Positions 38,392 through 59,630 of a DNA stretch of 64,000 nucleotides are shown here, in pieces. The notes under the pieces were generated by a model. The model was given only the letters and a program-made list of their open reading frames with translations. It ran no database searches and was not told the DNA's origin. The translations under genes and the position numbers were made by a program. The first letter of the stretch is position 1. Every line of letters starts with the position of its first letter. The DNA comes from an uncultured Sphingomonas sp. (GTDB lineage Bacteria > Pseudomonadota > Alphaproteobacteria > Sphingomonadales > Sphingomonadaceae), in the NCBI RefSeq assembly GCF_937859915.1, contig NZ_CALMAW010000029.1, forward strand, positions 1-64,000, written 5' to 3'.

Positions 38392-38493
38392 CGTTCCCCG
38401 GCGAAGGCCGCGGGGCCCAGGCCCCACGTTGCGTATCGGACGGTGCGCCTGCCAGCTGCTCCGGGCCTGGGCATCGGCCTGCGCCGGGGAACG
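38392..38493. repeat. intergenic inverted repeat, family A
   Basis: CGTTCCCCGGCGAAGGCCG (38392-38410) matches the reverse complement of 38475-38493 at 18 of 19 positions, and the inner parts (GGGGCCCAGGCCCC against GGGCCTGGGC) continue the pairing. A similar element lies at 50054-50160. It lies just after the glycosidase stop, between convergent genes, which suits a REP-type palindrome that may also stop transcripts from both sides. Confidence 0.75.
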
Positions 38494-50949: not shown

Positions 50950-51585
50950 ATGACGTGGGATCGGTGGTGGCTGTTTACGGTGACGGTGTTCCTGATCGCG
51001 GGAACGCCGGGCCCCAACATGCTTCACGTCATGACGCGCAGCGTACGCTTCGGCTTTGGGCGCAGCGTCTGGGCGATGGCGGGATGCCTGACCGCGGTGT
51101 TGTTCGCCTGTTCGGGCTCGGCGCTCGGGCTGGGCGCGCTGCTGCTCGCTATGCCGCGGCTGTTCGATGTGGTGCGCTATGCCGGCGCCGCCTATCTGGT
51201 CTGGTTGGGCGTCAAGGCGTGGCGCGGGGCGGGGAAGGGCGAGGCCGGGCTCGATCCGGACATGCCGGCTGCAGGGCCACGCGTGCCGTCTTATCGGCTC
51301 TATATCGACGCGCTGCTGACCGGGCTGTCCAATCCGAAGCTAATCCTGTTCGCCGCCGCCTTCTTCCCGCAGTTTATCAGCCGTCACGCGCCGGCGGTGC
51401 CGCAGTTCGCCATCCTGGTCGCGACCTTCGCGGCGATCGAAAGCAGCTGGTACGCAACCTATGCGGCGGGCGGACGTCGGCTGGCGCGTTGGCTGGCGTC
51501 GCCTGCACGGCAGAAGCTGTTCGATCGCGCGACCGGCGGGCTGTTCTTCGCCTTCGGCGTGGGGCTGGTGGCGGCGCGGGTGTAG
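50950..51585 (+). CDS. LysE family translocator
   Basis: A 211-residue inner-membrane exporter with six predicted helices. The N-terminal TVTVFLIAGTPGPNMLHVMTRSV contains the PGPN signature; later AAYLVWLGVKAWRG and LYIDALLTGLSNPKLILFAAAFFPQFI match the RhtB/LysE pattern, with FFAFGVGLVAARV at the end. Members export amino acids or homoserine lactone-like compounds; substrate unknown. The ATG at 50950 has a GGGGCAGGG stretch before it; a GTG lies directly upstream. Confidence 0.93.
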   Translation: MTWDRWWLFTVTVFLIAGTPGPNMLHVMTRSVRFGFGRSVWAMAGCLTAVLFACSGSALGLGALLLAMPRLFDVVRYAGAAYLVWLGVKAWRGAGKGEAGLDPDMPAAGPRVPSYRLYIDALLTGLSNPKLILFAAAFFPQFISRHAPAVPQFAILVATFAAIESSWYATYAAGGRRLARWLASPARQKLFDRATGGLFFAFGVGLVAARV

Positions 51586-51595
51586 TGGCGCTCAT

Positions 51596-51678
51596 CGTCA
51601 TGCCGGACTTGATCCGGCATCTGGAGCCGCAGGCGCCGCGCCCGAAGCCCTAGATCCCGGATCAAGTCCGGCATGACG
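51596..51678. repeat. perfect 22-bp inverted repeat, family B
   Basis: The 22 bp at 51596-51617 (CGTCATGCCGGACTTGATCC plus GG) are exactly complementary to 51657-51678. The intervening 39 bp also pair in part. The element starts 11 bp after the LysE-type gene and lies 93 bp before typA. It is related to the secD-secF repeat (47001-47080). It resembles REP-type palindromes and may end LysE transcription. Confidence 0.85.
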
Positions 51679-51770
51679 AAAGGCGGAGGACCCTCCGCCA
51701 CCCCCGCCCTTGTTGCAGCGCGCCATCTCGGCTATGGGCGCGCGCTGAAACTCCGACAGGATCCGAAAAT

Positions 51771-53609: not shown

Positions 53610-53621
53610 GCTTTCTTCATA

Positions 53622-53757
53622 CTCCCCGGCTTTGGCCGGGGAGGGGGACCGCCGGCGAAGCCGGCGGTGGAGGGGAAAGGCGCGACCGTCGCTTCGCGCC
53701 GGCCCCTCCACCATCCTGCGGATGGTCCCCCTCCCCACCAAAAGGTGGGGAGGATGG
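53622..53757. repeat. composite palindromic repeat, family C
   Basis: Several nested hairpins fill the gap after typA: CTCCCCGGC/GCCGGGGAG (53622-53643), GACCGCCGGC/GCCGGCGGT (about 53647-53670), GGCGCGA/TCGCGCC, and CTCCCCACC/GGTGGGGAG (53731-53752). In addition GGGGAGGGGGACC and its complement GGTCCCCCTCCCC flank the whole. This looks like a dispersed intergenic element; the first hairpin could also end the typA transcript. Confidence 0.7.
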
Positions 53758-54745: not shown

Positions 54746-56485
54746 ATGCGCCGTGCCGCCCTGCTGTTATTGCCTTTGCTGATCGGCGCCGCGCCCATCG
54801 ATTGGGATGCGCGCTTCCAGTCGATCTACGGTACGGAATATCAATGGCGGCTTGCCAGCTTCGCCGAGCCCGAGGGGCAGGGGCAGGATCGCATCATGAG
54901 CCCGCATCTGCCCGACGTCTCGCCCGCCGCGCAGGCCGGGCGGACGGCGACGTGGACCAAGGTCGAGGCGGCGCTTGCGGCGATCCCGCTCGACAAGCTC
55001 TCGACCGACAATCAGGTCAATTTCGCGGTCTACAAGGGCCAAATTGATGCCTTGCTCGCCGCGCAGCATTTCCAGGAATGGCAGAGGCCCGCCAATTCGG
55101 ATTCGAGCTTCTGGGGTGATCTTGCCGGCTTTGACGACAAGCCGCTGCGCTCGGAACAGGAATATCGCAACTATCTCGCCAAGCTGGCCGAGGTGCCGCG
55201 CTATTTCGACCAGCAGATCGCCAACATGAAGGCGGGCGAGGCGCGTGGCTTCACCCCGCCGCAGGTCACGCTCACGGGCCGCGACCAGTCGATCGCACAG
55301 GTCGCGCAAGCCAAGGCACCGGAGGACACAGGCTTCTGGGCGCCGTTCAGGACGATGCCGAGCAACCTGTCTGCGAGCCGTCAGGCGGCGCTGCGGTCGG
55401 AAGCGCAGCGCGTCATCATGGCAAGCGTCGTGCCCGCCTATGCCAAGCTGCTGTCCTATTGGCGCGACGACTATGTGCCGCACGCCAACCCCGTACTCGG
55501 TGCCGAGCAACTGCCCGACGGCGTCGCCTATTATCGCTCCAAGATCGCGGAATTCACGACGCTCGATCTGACACCCGACCAGATCCACGCGATCGGTCTG
55601 CACGAGGTCGCCGCGATTCATGCCGAGATGCTCGGCGTGATGAAGCAGGTCGGGTTCAAGGGCGATTTCCCCGCCTTCCTCGTCTTCCTGCGCAGCGATC
55701 CGCGCTTCTACGCCAAGACGCCCGACGAATTGCTCAAAGACGCCGCCTGGATCGCCAAACGCTTCGACGGCAAGTCCGAGACCTGGTTCGGGCACCTGCC
55801 GCGAAAGCGCTTCGCGATCGTTCCGGTGCCCCCCGCGATCGCGCCTTTCTATACGGCGGGCCGCGGCGGCGACGGCATTTATCTGGTCAACACCTATGAC
55901 CTTCCCAGCCGCCCCCTCTATCAACTGACCGCGCTGACGCTGCACGAAAGCGCGCCCGGCCATGCCTTCCAGATCCCGCTCGCGGCCGAGCATAAGGACC
56001 AGCCCGAATTTCGGTCGGCGGGCTATATCTCGGCCTATGGCGAGGGCTGGGCACTCTATTGCGAGCGGCTCGGCGACGAGATGGGGATGTACGAAACTCC
56101 CTATGACCGCTTCGGGATGCTGTCGTACCAGATGTGGCGCGCCGCCCGGCTGGTGGTCGATACCGGCATTCACCACAGCGGCTGGACACGGGCGCAGGCG
56201 GTCGCCTTCCTCCACGACAATACCGCGCTCTCGGATCACGAGATCGCGACCGAGGTCGACCGCTATATTTCCTGGCCGGGACAGGCACTGTCCTATTATC
56301 TCGGCGAGAAGACGATCCGCGACGATCGCGCGCGCGCCGAGAAGGCGCTGGGGTCACGGTTCAACATCCGCGCCTTCCACGACGCGCTGCTCGAACTCGG
56401 CTCGGTGCCGATGCGCGAGGTCGACCGGATGACCGATCGCTTCATCGCCGGTGGCGGCCGCGGGCCCTATCCCGGCGAGGAATGA
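54746..56485 (+). CDS. DUF885-family exported peptidase-like protein
   Basis: A 579-residue protein with a short signal peptide (RRAALLLLPLLIGAAP). The DUF885 family has the metal-site-like HESAPGHAFQ (LTLHESAPGHAFQIPL, about residues 395-410), with E in AYGEGWALYCERLG further on, similar to gluzincin metallopeptidases. It is probably a periplasmic zinc peptidase of unknown substrate. GGAGTTTGCCC precedes the ATG. The two thioesterase genes are divergent; putA follows 94 bp downstream. Confidence 0.9.
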   Translation: MRRAALLLLPLLIGAAPIDWDARFQSIYGTEYQWRLASFAEPEGQGQDRIMSPHLPDVSPAAQAGRTATWTKVEAALAAIPLDKLSTDNQVNFAVYKGQIDALLAAQHFQEWQRPANSDSSFWGDLAGFDDKPLRSEQEYRNYLAKLAEVPRYFDQQIANMKAGEARGFTPPQVTLTGRDQSIAQVAQAKAPEDTGFWAPFRTMPSNLSASRQAALRSEAQRVIMASVVPAYAKLLSYWRDDYVPHANPVLGAEQLPDGVAYYRSKIAEFTTLDLTPDQIHAIGLHEVAAIHAEMLGVMKQVGFKGDFPAFLVFLRSDPRFYAKTPDELLKDAAWIAKRFDGKSETWFGHLPRKRFAIVPVPPAIAPFYTAGRGGDGIYLVNTYDLPSRPLYQLTALTLHESAPGHAFQIPLAAEHKDQPEFRSAGYISAYGEGWALYCERLGDEMGMYETPYDRFGMLSYQMWRAARLVVDTGIHHSGWTRAQAVAFLHDNTALSDHEIATEVDRYISWPGQALSYYLGEKTIRDDRARAEKALGSRFNIRAFHDALLELGSVPMREVDRMTDRFIAGGGRGPYPGEE

Positions 56486-56579
56486 GCCGCCGCGTCGCCA
56501 CTGGCCCCGGCGCGTCGGCGTTCCTATAGAGCAGGGCATTGTCGATACACGCTTAGTTGCTTTCCAGCCGAGGATCCCG

Positions 56580-59500
56580 ATGGCCGAACTCTCCGCACCG
56601 CTTGCCGCCGAAATGCGGCGCCTTCACCGCGCGGCGGAGCCCGAGGTGCTCGCGGCGCTGCTGCCCTCGGCGACGCTGCCGCATGCGCAGCGCGAGCGGG
56701 TGGTCGGTCGTGCGCTCGGTCTGCTGGCGGATCTGCGGGCGGCGCAGGCGTCGGGCTGGGTCAACAAATTCCTCCAGCAGTATCGGCTCAACTCGTCCGA
56801 GGGCGTGGCGCTGCTCAGCCTCGCCGAGGCGTTCCTGCGCGTCCCCGATCCCGAGACCGCCGACCTGCTCATCGCCGACAAGCTCGGCGACGCCGACTGG
56901 AAGGCGCACACCGGCAAGTCCGCGTCGGGCCTGGTCAATTCGGCGACCTGGGGCCTGGTGATCGGGCGTGCTCTGGTCTCCGACGAGGGTCGCGGCGGCG
57001 TGCTGCGTCGGCTGGTCAGCCGCGCCGGCGAGCCGTTCGTGCGCCAGGCGGTGGGTGCGGCGATGAAGCTGATGGGCGAGGTGTTCGTGATGGGCCGCAC
57101 CATCGACGAAGCGCTCGGCCGGATGGACAAGCGCGACCAGCGCGGCTTCACCGCCAGCTTCGACATGCTCGGTGAGGCCGCGCGCACCCATGCCGATGCC
57201 GATCGCTATCAGGCGAGCTACCTGGATGCGATCCGCTCGGTGGGCCGCCAGCACAACAAGGGCCACTCGATCTCGGTCAAGCTGTCGGCGCTGCACCCGC
57301 GCTACGAGGTGGCGCGCTGGCACGAATGCGTCGGCGCGCTCAGCGTCCGGCTCGAGGAACTGGCGCTGGCCGCCGCCGAGGCCGGGATCGGGCTCACCGT
57401 CGATGCCGAGGAGTCCGAGCGGCTCGAGATGAGCTTCGAGATCATCGGCGCGGTCGCGCGGCTGCCGGCGCTCAAAGGCTGGGACGGCTATGGCATGGCG
57501 GTGCAGTCCTATGGCAAGCGCGCGCGCGCGACGATCGAATGGGCCGATACGCTGGGCCATGCGGCCGGGCGGCGGATGGCGGTGCGGCTGGTCAAGGGCG
57601 CCTATTGGGACAGCGAGATCAAGCGCACGCAGGAGGCCGGCCTCTCCGACTATCCGCTGTTCACGCGCAAGGCCGCGACCGACGTCTCCTACCTCGCCTG
57701 TGCGGGCGACATGCTCAAGGCGCCGCACATCTATCCGGCGTTCGCCAGCCACAATGCGCTGACCGTCGCGACGATCCTCGAATGGGCGGGCGAGAGCCGC
57801 GACTTCGAGTTCCAGCGGCTGCACGGCATGGGCGAAGGGCTCTACGAGCGGCTGGTGCGCGAGGAGCGATATCGCTGCCGCATCTATGCACCGGTTGGCG
57901 GGCATCGCGACCTGCTCGCTTATCTGGTCCGGCGCCTGCTCGAGAATGGCGCCAATTCGAGCTTCGTCCACCAGCTCGCCGACGAGACGCTGACCGACGC
58001 CGAGCTGCTCGCCGATCCGGCCGAGAAGATCCGCGCGGTCGGCGGCGCGCGCCATCCCTCGATCCCGCTGCCGGTCGACCTGTTCGGCGCGGTGCGGAAG
58101 AATAGTGAAGGCATCGATCTGCAGGACCGCGAGACGCTGGCGGGGGTGGTGCGCGAGATCGGGACGCCGTTCGTGCCGAGCGAAGTCGAGGCACAGGGCT
58201 CGGGCGCGGCGCGTGGAGGACGTCCCTCGACGACGCTCGGGACGAACGGACTGGAATTTGCTCTTGGCGCGACGGAGGCCGTGACCCGCGCCGCGCGCGC
58301 CTTCCCGGCGTGGTCCGCCACCCCCGTGGAGACCCGCGCGCAGGCGCTCGAAAAGCTCGCCGATCTGCTCGAGACGCACCGTCTCGACCTGATGCGCCTA
58401 TGTGTCCATGAAGCGTACAAGACCTATGCGGACGCGATCGGCGAGGTCCGTGAGGCCGCCGATTTCTGCCGCTATTACGCCAATCAGGCGCGCGGGCTGA
58501 TGCAGCCGGTCGAGCTGCCCGGGCCGACCGGCGAGCGCAACGTGCTGCGGCTCGGCGGCCGCGGCGTGTGGGCGTGCATCGCGCCGTGGAATTTCCCGCT
58601 CGCGATTTTCCTGGGGCAGGTCGCGGCGGCACTCGCAACCGGCAACACCGTCGTCGCCAAGCCCGCGCCGCAGACGCCGCGGATCGCCGGCTGGGCGGTC
58701 GCGCTGGCGCATGAGGCGGGCATTCCCGAAGACGCGCTGGTGCTGCTTCCCGGTGGCCCCGAGGAGGGATCGGCGCTGGTCGCCTACGCGCGCGTCGCCG
58801 GCGTCGCCTTCACCGGCTCGACGCGCACCGCCAAGGCGATCGCGCGCGCCCTGCTCGAGGGCGACGACCGCCCGATCGTCCCGCTGATCGCCGAGACCGG
58901 GGGGCTCAACGCGATGATCGTCGATTCGACCGCGCTGCCCGAGCAGGTCGTCGCCGACATCGTCACCTCGGCGTTCCGCTCGGCGGGCCAGCGCTGCTCG
59001 GCGCTACGGCTGCTGGTCCTGCAAGAGGATATCGCCGAGCGCACGCTCGAGATGCTCGGCGGCGCGATGGACACGCTGCAGGTCGGCGACCCCGCGGATC
59101 CCGCGACCGACGTCGGTCCGGTGATCGACCAGCCCGCCTATGACCGGCTGATGACCTATCGCACGCAGGCTGAGGCGCGCTGGGTCAAGACGGTTGCGGT
59201 GCCCGCCGACGGCCTGTTCGTGCCGCCGACGGTGATCCGGCTCGATGCGATCGACCAGTTGAAGCAGGAATGGTTCGGCCCGATCCTCCACGTCGTGACG
59301 TGGGCGGCGGGGGATCTCGCGCGCACGGTCGAGCGGATCAATGCCTCGGGCTTCGGGCTGACCATGGGTCTCCACAGCCGCATCGCGCGCGCCGCCGACG
59401 AGGTCGAGGCACTGGCCGAGGTCGGCAATCTCTACGTCAACCGTTCGATGATCGGCGCGGTGGTCGGCTCGCAGCCGTTCGGCGGCGAGCGGCTGTCGGG

Positions 59501-59630
59501 TACCGGCCCCAAGGCGGGCGGTCCGCACTATCTGGCCCGTTTCTGCGTGGAGCGCGTGACCTCGACCGACACGACCTCGGCGGGCGGCAACGCAACGCTG
59601 CTCTCGCTCGACGACGTCGCCGGGATCTGA
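56580..59630 (+). CDS. putA: bifunctional proline dehydrogenase / delta-1-pyrroline-5-carboxylate dehydrogenase
   Basis: A 1016-residue PutA that turns proline into glutamate. The PRODH barrel (about 60-470) has GHSISVKLSALHPRYE, VRLVKGAYWDSEIKR and YRCRIYAPVGGHRDLLAYLVRRLLENG. The ALDH part (about 560-1010) has IAPWNFPLAIFLGQ, the general base E772 (ETGG) and catalytic Cys C806 (RSAGQRCSALRLL). There is no N-terminal ribbon-helix-helix DNA-binding domain, so it is not a self-repressor. Unusually, residues about 530-557 between the two halves are encoded by an inserted palindromic repeat. Confidence 0.97.
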   Translation: MAELSAPLAAEMRRLHRAAEPEVLAALLPSATLPHAQRERVVGRALGLLADLRAAQASGWVNKFLQQYRLNSSEGVALLSLAEAFLRVPDPETADLLIADKLGDADWKAHTGKSASGLVNSATWGLVIGRALVSDEGRGGVLRRLVSRAGEPFVRQAVGAAMKLMGEVFVMGRTIDEALGRMDKRDQRGFTASFDMLGEAARTHADADRYQASYLDAIRSVGRQHNKGHSISVKLSALHPRYEVARWHECVGALSVRLEELALAAAEAGIGLTVDAEESERLEMSFEIIGAVARLPALKGWDGYGMAVQSYGKRARATIEWADTLGHAAGRRMAVRLVKGAYWDSEIKRTQEAGLSDYPLFTRKAATDVSYLACAGDMLKAPHIYPAFASHNALTVATILEWAGESRDFEFQRLHGMGEGLYERLVREERYRCRIYAPVGGHRDLLAYLVRRLLENGANSSFVHQLADETLTDAELLADPAEKIRAVGGARHPSIPLPVDLFGAVRKNSEGIDLQDRETLAGVVREIGTPFVPSEVEAQGSGAARGGRPSTTLGTNGLEFALGATEAVTRAARAFPAWSATPVETRAQALEKLADLLETHRLDLMRLCVHEAYKTYADAIGEVREAADFCRYYANQARGLMQPVELPGPTGERNVLRLGGRGVWACIAPWNFPLAIFLGQVAAALATGNTVVAKPAPQTPRIAGWAVALAHEAGIPEDALVLLPGGPEEGSALVAYARVAGVAFTGSTRTAKAIARALLEGDDRPIVPLIAETGGLNAMIVDSTALPEQVVADIVTSAFRSAGQRCSALRLLVLQEDIAERTLEMLGGAMDTLQVGDPADPATDVGPVIDQPAYDRLMTYRTQAEARWVKTVAVPADGLFVPPTVIRLDAIDQLKQEWFGPILHVVTWAAGDLARTVERINASGFGLTMGLHSRIARAADEVEALAEVGNLYVNRSMIGAVVGSQPFGGERLSGTGPKAGGPHYLARFCVERVTSTDTTSAGGNATLLSLDDVAGI
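58167..58249. repeat. palindromic repeat translated inside putA
   Basis: CCGTTCGTGCCGAGCG, AAGTCGAGG (58167-58191) matches the reverse complement of 58225-58249 at 22 of 25 positions. The element is read in frame as TPFVPSEVEAQGSG followed by STTLGTNG-like residues, which are typical of translated sphingomonad intergenic repeats. It falls in the linker between the PRODH and ALDH halves, where extra residues are tolerated. Confidence 0.85.

Follow-up and report, generated by a model that had tools for sequence, protein, structure and literature searches.

A palindromic repeat is translated in frame inside putA

The window, a stretch of 64,000 nucleotides from an uncultured Sphingomonas sp., carries a putA gene whose two enzymatic halves are joined by a segment encoded by a palindromic repeat. 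The features that concern us are the following:

56580..59630, + strand: putA, bifunctional proline dehydrogenase / pyrroline-5-carboxylate (aldehyde) dehydrogenase (Pfam, structure matches)
57114..57974, + strand: proline dehydrogenase domain, residues 179-465 counted from ATG 56580 (Pfam PF01619, E 3.1e-92)
58167..58249, + strand: palindromic repeat of class A, residues 530-557, PFVPSEVEA...STTLGTNG (self-complementarity, 46 further places in its own genome, in-frame translation)
58167..58191, + strand: left arm of the palindrome (mismatch-tolerant inverted-repeat scan)
58192..58224, + strand: non-palindromic centre of the repeat (same scan)
58225..58249, + strand: right arm of the palindrome (same scan)
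58182..58256, + strand: predicted disordered linker stretch, residues 535-559, pLDDT <50 (AlphaFold2 model m3384eca83679)
58272..59546, + strand: aldehyde dehydrogenase domain, residues 565-989 (Pfam PF00171, E 1.9e-103)

The mechanical ORF extends over 56451-59630 (+) and opens with a GTG at 56451. Because the matches of the closest relatives begin at about residue 44 or later, ATG 56580 is the probable start of putA. Pfam recognizes Pro_dh-DNA_bdg, Pro_dh and Aldedh in the product, with PRODH just below the cut-off. The protein sequence matches the structures 4q73/3haz, and the AlphaFold2 model (83 sequences, mean pLDDT 83.6) matches Bradyrhizobium PutA 4q71 at 49% identity as well as Sinorhizobium PutA structures. 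The model drops below a pLDDT of 50 at residues 535-559, flanked by helices 517-528 and 564-580. Since the repeat encodes residues 530-557, most of the insert is predicted to form a loose interdomain loop.

A preliminary description of the window had placed an 83-bp palindromic element at these positions, in frame inside putA, and had assigned its roughly 28 residues to the connection between the proline and aldehyde dehydrogenase halves. Both statements hold, and Pfam domains lie on either side. It had also called the palindrome near-perfect. The palindrome is real, but that wording is too strong over 83 bp, where 29 of 41 pairs are complementary; pairing is closer in the two 25-nt arms that enclose the 33-nt centre (22 of 25, 58167-58191 against 58225-58249), which score 16 at +1 for a match and -2 for a mismatch. 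The element escaped a ready-made repeat finder run with default settings and was recovered by a custom scan tolerating mismatches. At our cut-off of at least 14, the window contains seven palindromes compared to 1, 0 and 0 in three mononucleotide shuffles. Folded as single-stranded DNA, the 83-bp strand reaches -32.8 kcal/mol (z -4.33), and none of 200 shuffles was equally stable.

Only one other 83-mer in the window, at 51596, is more self-complementary than the putA element. The strongest palindrome of the window lies at 51595-51679 (28-nt arms, score 25), has CGTCATGCCGG at its ends and resembles CGTC-tagged REP dimers; it sits just after, or overlaps, the ends of mechanical ORFs at 51585 and 51653. 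Two more, at 53618-53756 and 38392-38493 (scores 15 and 16), resemble CCCCGGCGAAGGCCGGGG and CTCCCC classes, and each starts about 9 bases past the end of a + strand ORF.

The element is dispersed in its own genome and enters other conserved genes

In the source genome, a draft of 137 contigs that is 80% complete, the element matched 63 rows at E <= 1e-3 with both strands counted. Rescanning the window and 39 fetched stretches gave 49 rows, two of them seen twice in overlapping loci, and thus 47 distinct places including putA. In all but one of these copies, three to six of the six frames are open. The element is poor in stops, so an open frame by itself is weak proof of coding. We checked 33 of the 47 places for coding-like codon-position GC on both flanks and searched the best seven besides putA against Pfam. 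At least 8 of the 47 copies are in frame, in seven conserved genes, putA included:

PutA: one copy, between Pro_dh and Aldedh
DNA polymerase III alpha: one copy, between the PHP and polymerase matches
LigD: one copy, between the phosphoesterase and ligase domains
CarA: one copy, between its two domains
2-oxoacid dehydrogenase E2: one copy, between the lipoyl and E3-binding domains
MiaB-like protein (L229, C67:35000-37700): two copies in one frame, between UPF0004 and Radical_SAM
sarcosine-oxidase-alpha-like protein: one copy, inside the Pyr_redox_2 match

The copies lie between Pfam matches in six of the seven genes, the exception being the sarcosine-oxidase-like protein. No Pfam family was found in the remaining stretch (L237). 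Six of the seven genes have one or more copies with the reading PFVPSxVEx...STxLxTNG, and the left half of the E2 copy reads TVRPEPVEG; arginine-rich readings such as VRPERSRGT occur in none of the seven. The preliminary description had taken TPFVPSEVEA and STTLGTNG for strings of translated intergenic repeats; PFVPSEVEx and STTLGTNG both recur in other copies of this genome. The search for further in-frame copies that it had proposed finds them in these genes.

In relatives the same joint is empty or filled by other palindromes

To place the insert among relatives, we collected PutA genes by similarity to the window PutA. The set draws on 106 of 397 genomes of the family (11 of 107 places, at 52-55% identity, were left out), 73 of 151 genomes of one genus, and a named-contig scan in which the best 80 matches were kept, 33 loci taken and 29 used (without L105, L113, L115 and L117). 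Exact or same-genome duplicates (L124, L147, L207, L209, L302, L308, L324, L356 and L362) and mis-cut loci (L168 and L201) were excluded, and the tree additionally omits L065 and L208. It was built from 182 rows by a quick LG+G4 search with the linker omitted; in an earlier tree of 184 rows, 46 of 179 inner branches were weakly supported. We call a linker short, or "empty", when the stretch from GIDL to FPAW has 44-48 residues and no assigned class. By visual comparison of arm sequences and peptides we distinguished five classes of insert:

class A: FVPSEVEG/STSLDTNG
class B: SRESGNP/DSRFRGNDG and VIPANAGTH/VRGDDG
class C: PLPxxGGxGxG/NPSPEGEG, with a similar palindrome in other frames
class D: HPGEGRGP/LDPGLRRGG
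class E: FAASRE/REDAKG

Forty-two of the 49 class rows contain a palindrome scoring at least 14; the others (L040, L130, L152, L163, L320, L333 and L340) were placed by peptide or partial motif. Classes B and D have a common stem-GAAx-stem-CCA plan and, judged from sequence, may be one super-family.

The tree comprises 93 short linkers, 49 with classes A-E (A 12, B 3, C 23, D 8, E 3), 13 of ancestral type and 27 others. The preliminary description would have failed had all PutAs of the family carried equivalent residues with no palindrome in the DNA. Instead, 93 of 182 linkers are short and without the insert, and many filled relatives have a different palindrome. The palindromic element in putA is thus read in frame as part of a conserved protein and is missing from orthologues, and a native PutA linker can be set aside because the orthologues differ.

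Classes and their absence require at least 37 state changes on the tree, with the 27 rows marked "long?" left out. Counted by single class, the changes number 11 for A, 3 for B, 17 for C, 7 for D and 3 for E, and merging B with D leaves the 37 as they are. None of the 49 insert-bearing rows has an in-frame stop; two short-linker rows, L060 and L328, have one each. Among 184 PutA genes, 42 palindromes scoring at least 14 fall in the linker and 5 elsewhere. The linker makes up 30,678 of 543,354 bases (5.6%), which by length would be expected to hold 2.7 of the 47. Measured from the conserved glycine codon of GIDL, the 42 linker palindromes start 45-85 nt downstream (median 57.5). L129 is an exception to the linker rule, having a second strong palindrome (score 25) at about nt 2657 of the gene, far from the linker.

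More distant PutAs have another kind of linker. In 25 PutAs at approximately 47-54% identity it contains a longer conserved segment, VxGxxxxG...NPAD...VG, also present in a group that includes Asticcacaulis and Caulobacter and missing from the sphingomonad PutAs nearest the window PutA. Bradyrhizobium PutA (3haz/4q73) has a short linker by alignment. Genome G270 has two PutA genes, L125 and L206, one with a class C linker and one with an ancestral-type linker. A clade of six (L195, L349, L358, L366, L367 and L368) shares a 69-residue linker (DAVHADPxxxSGR etc.) with no strong palindrome. None of nine same-genus genomes (G001-G009) has a window-type PutA at E <= 1e-299, their PutAs being about 50% identical; the window putA may have been acquired, or differently lost.

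Representative inserts of classes A-D are also multicopy at home, with rows counted on both strands. Class A gave 76 rows in G180 and 62 in G030; class B, 83 in G260; class C, 80 in G424, 78 in G426 and 51 in G270; and class D, 85 in G517 and 88 in G486. Several genomes gave few: for class A, 3 in the L040 genome and 1 in G123; for class B, 5 in the L077 genome and none in G235; for class C, 1 in the L055 genome, 2 in G418 and 4 in G171; and for class D, 6 in G113. Such low counts may result from divergence, since the query came from another genome's insert.

Close relatives carry different classes between common flanks

In close species whose putA DNA is approximately 89-93% identical, different classes lie between common flanks. 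L045 and L142 (92.5%) hold classes C and A, with both flanks common, and in L142 about the first 12 bases of a C arm remain before the class A repeat. Classes C and D alternate, again between common flanks, in L049/L317 (93.3%), L313/L319 (89.7%) and L125/L126 (88.7%), and L041 and L049 likewise hold D and C. L303 and L304 (92.2%) both contain class C with different cores and frames, and the downstream frame is kept. In genus g102, four fillings (C-like, C, D and A) are found in four of six genomes, and the other two are short. A single ancient insertion inherited by all is ruled out, as close species hold different classes.

Some comparisons are less simple. Three class C loci (L312, L314 and L311) are without part of a loop that is present in the short L341, L067 and L338. 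Next to the insert, the loop of the filled L312 and L314 also differs from that of these short loci in about 24 nt, and decay could therefore account for some "empty" linkers.

The CarA linker shows a similar pattern

The source genome's own CarA reads PFVPSEVEG...STALGTNG in its interdomain linker, whereas the carA loci of the same-genus genomes G002 and G009 (L279 and L280) read GYATHAANPEG there and are empty of the repeat. We read 30 carA loci, taken from 75 matching genomes of 149 searched, and recognized repeats by reading. Ten of the 30 hold recognizable class A or C repeats in the linker, in both orders; the loci were ranked by an insert-holding query, so filled linkers are over-represented and 10 of 30 is not a frequency. 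Three of the 30 translations (L265, L279 and L280) contain stops, none of them beyond codon 29 of the stretch read.

Palindrome arms change less than their surroundings

We compared five groups of loci that share an insert: L049/L313/L322/L323/L325, L317/L319, L312/L314, L122/L123 and L318/L321. Across them, 12 of 322 columns vary in the arms compared to 39 of 211 in the centres (Fisher P 3e-8). The arms change less than third codon positions in all five groups and less than the centres in four. L122 and L123 differ by 0.000 in the arms, 0.100 in the centre and 0.273 at third positions, and L317 and L319 by 0.000, 0.116 and 0.226; in the L049 group the arms differ by 0.048 and third positions by 0.149. 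L318/L321 show no difference between arms and centre (0.028 and 0.025). Because pairing in a single member served to define the arms, they are biased toward conservation, although we judge this bias not to be fivefold. In a set of five class C sequences (195 cells), 5 cells are G-T, 2 are broken and 2 are compensatory.

A passive passenger should change more than these arms do, which makes simple tolerance insufficient as an explanation. The pattern could arise by conversion from other copies, by template switching within the hairpin, or by selection on the hairpin. The insert common to L317 and L319, which stand apart on the tree, may point to recent exchange.

Comparison with known palindromic repeats

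Palindromic repeats read in frame within proteins are known. In the portions of the literature consulted here, Rickettsia RPEs (Ogata, Claverie; PMC2229807) are palindromic repeats in frame inside proteins, and one RPE-bearing guanylate kinase is reportedly active. The putA repeat resembles them in being tolerated in frame inside a conserved protein and, by predicted disorder only, in occupying an unstructured part. The host differs, the likeness is one of behavior and not of sequence, and those portions describe no case in which several classes repeatedly replace one another at a single joint.

The sections of PMC3733652 that we cover describe intragenic REPs in many genomes, sphingomonads included, with cases in DNA ligase and DnaE2. 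There, REP dimers code for 20-30 residues in frame, linkers and loops are proposed as tolerant places, and two Xanthomonas species have different REPs at about the same recB site. The window repeat agrees with these GTAG/CGTC REPs in forming in-frame dimers at linker and loop locations, and with the CGTC type in having tens of dispersed, mostly paired copies, some inside ORFs (47 places, at least 8 in frame). A terminal tag is not clear: CGTC occurs once, at the inner end just before the right arm and not at the outer ends, and no GTAG is present in the element. It differs from CGTC REPs in its unit stems, which by eye are 5 bp (GTGCC/GGCAC and GTCCC/GGGAC around 12 nt), compared to 8-9 bp with a loop of 4-5 nt. 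In L077, by contrast, the class B insert has CGTC and fits the REP unit, with stem ATTCCCGC, loop GAAA and tail CCA. Within the same sections, neither PutA nor CarA is among the examples, and no single site is described as turning over through several classes.

The mover is a separate question. REPINs and their RAYTs, as described in the part of PMC3116915 used here, are similar in being short dispersed inverted-repeat units in tens per genome. Y1_Tnp (PF01797) had no match in the source genome and none in 11 of 14 other insert-bearing genomes; it is found in the other three. A Y1-type RAYT was accordingly rejected as mover in the source genome, a draft that is 80% complete. CGTC repeats likewise seem to be without a dedicated transposase, according to the sections covered of PMC3733652. 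The nematomorph mitochondrial palindromes of PMC6649704, as far as that source was covered, also lie inside coding genes and are long, but they are mitochondrial and are not dispersed bacterial repeats at one linker. In the open-licence literature we found neither repeats in the interdomain joints of PutA and CarA nor turnover of many classes at a single site reported, which is a weak null. The comparison across relatives goes further than the in-frame palindromic repeats already known.

Interpretation

Taken together, the results make it highly probable that dispersing repeats survive where a protein tolerates them and that the PutA joint is a recurrent landing or exchange site. The putA element would be one copy of a dispersed sphingomonad palindromic repeat that entered the short unstructured joint between the two helices linking the PutA halves. 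It would have stayed because the frame was kept, the frame used has no stop and an unstructured loop is tolerated by both domains, and in related species repeats of other classes occupy the joint. We infer that the repeats are themselves mobile, that the places where they survive are set by selection on the protein, and that PutA still works. The preliminary description's central idea, a dispersed repeat accommodated as the segment linking the two dehydrogenases, is supported; it overlooked the repeated refilling of this linker by other repeat classes.

An extension of this scheme would treat sphingomonad interdomain linkers such as those of PutA and CarA as exchange sites. Palindrome families would swap there in place and in frame, directed by the palindromes through hairpin cleavage and template switching or through conversion from other copies, and the same process would keep the arms alike. 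We regard this as possible but doubtful. If true, selfish palindromes would act as interchangeable linker parts.

The conserved arms could also mean that the hairpin itself is kept for a role at the nucleic-acid level, such as translation pausing between domains or mRNA stability, with the peptide as a by-product. Both the comparison with third positions and centres and the fact that the classes have little in common except palindromic form speak for such a role. We nevertheless consider it unlikely: the 93 short rows contain no palindrome scoring at least 14, compensatory cells in the class C set (2 of 195) do not exceed broken ones and are fewer than G-T ones, the choice of arms by pairing lowers their apparent change, and arms and centre change alike in L318/L321. 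A different emphasis would be placed on the DNA, with a mover recognizing a motif in putA and protein tolerance secondary. The narrow zone of palindrome starts after the GIDL glycine codon would fit such a target, but this zone coincides with the predicted loop between the two helices. Within it the exact start varies. Flanking sequences are far from uniform across species, inspection by eye revealed no target duplication, and other genes of the source genome also hold copies between domains, so that we find a DNA target quite unlikely.

The inserts might instead be adaptive, the repeats being raw material from which longer disordered linkers were selected for their effect on channelling or domain motion. 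The same joint has been refilled many times, and ancestral-type PutA has a conserved segment that short-linker sphingomonad PutAs are missing. Short linkers are, however, commoner than filled ones (93 versus 49), and the short-linker Bradyrhizobium PutA has solved structures; we hold adaptation to be very unlikely. A peptide native to PutA, with a palindrome that arose by chance, is scarcely credible. Although the 25 PutAs at about 47-54% identity also have a longer linker and the default repeat finder passed over the palindrome, the element recurs at 46 other places in the genome, its fold is unusually stable against shuffles, and relatives are without it or have other repeats.

Recurrent arrival or exchange of tolerated repeats at the PutA joint has consequences beyond this gene. 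A linker of unusual length and sequence in a sphingomonad protein can be a translated repeat, and should be read with that warning in mind. PutA also offers a natural series of close species in which one enzyme joint either is empty or holds a palindromic repeat, with no fewer than three clearly distinct classes represented. Such a series makes testable both how non-autonomous palindromes move without a known transposase and how proteins tolerate or use inserted selfish DNA.
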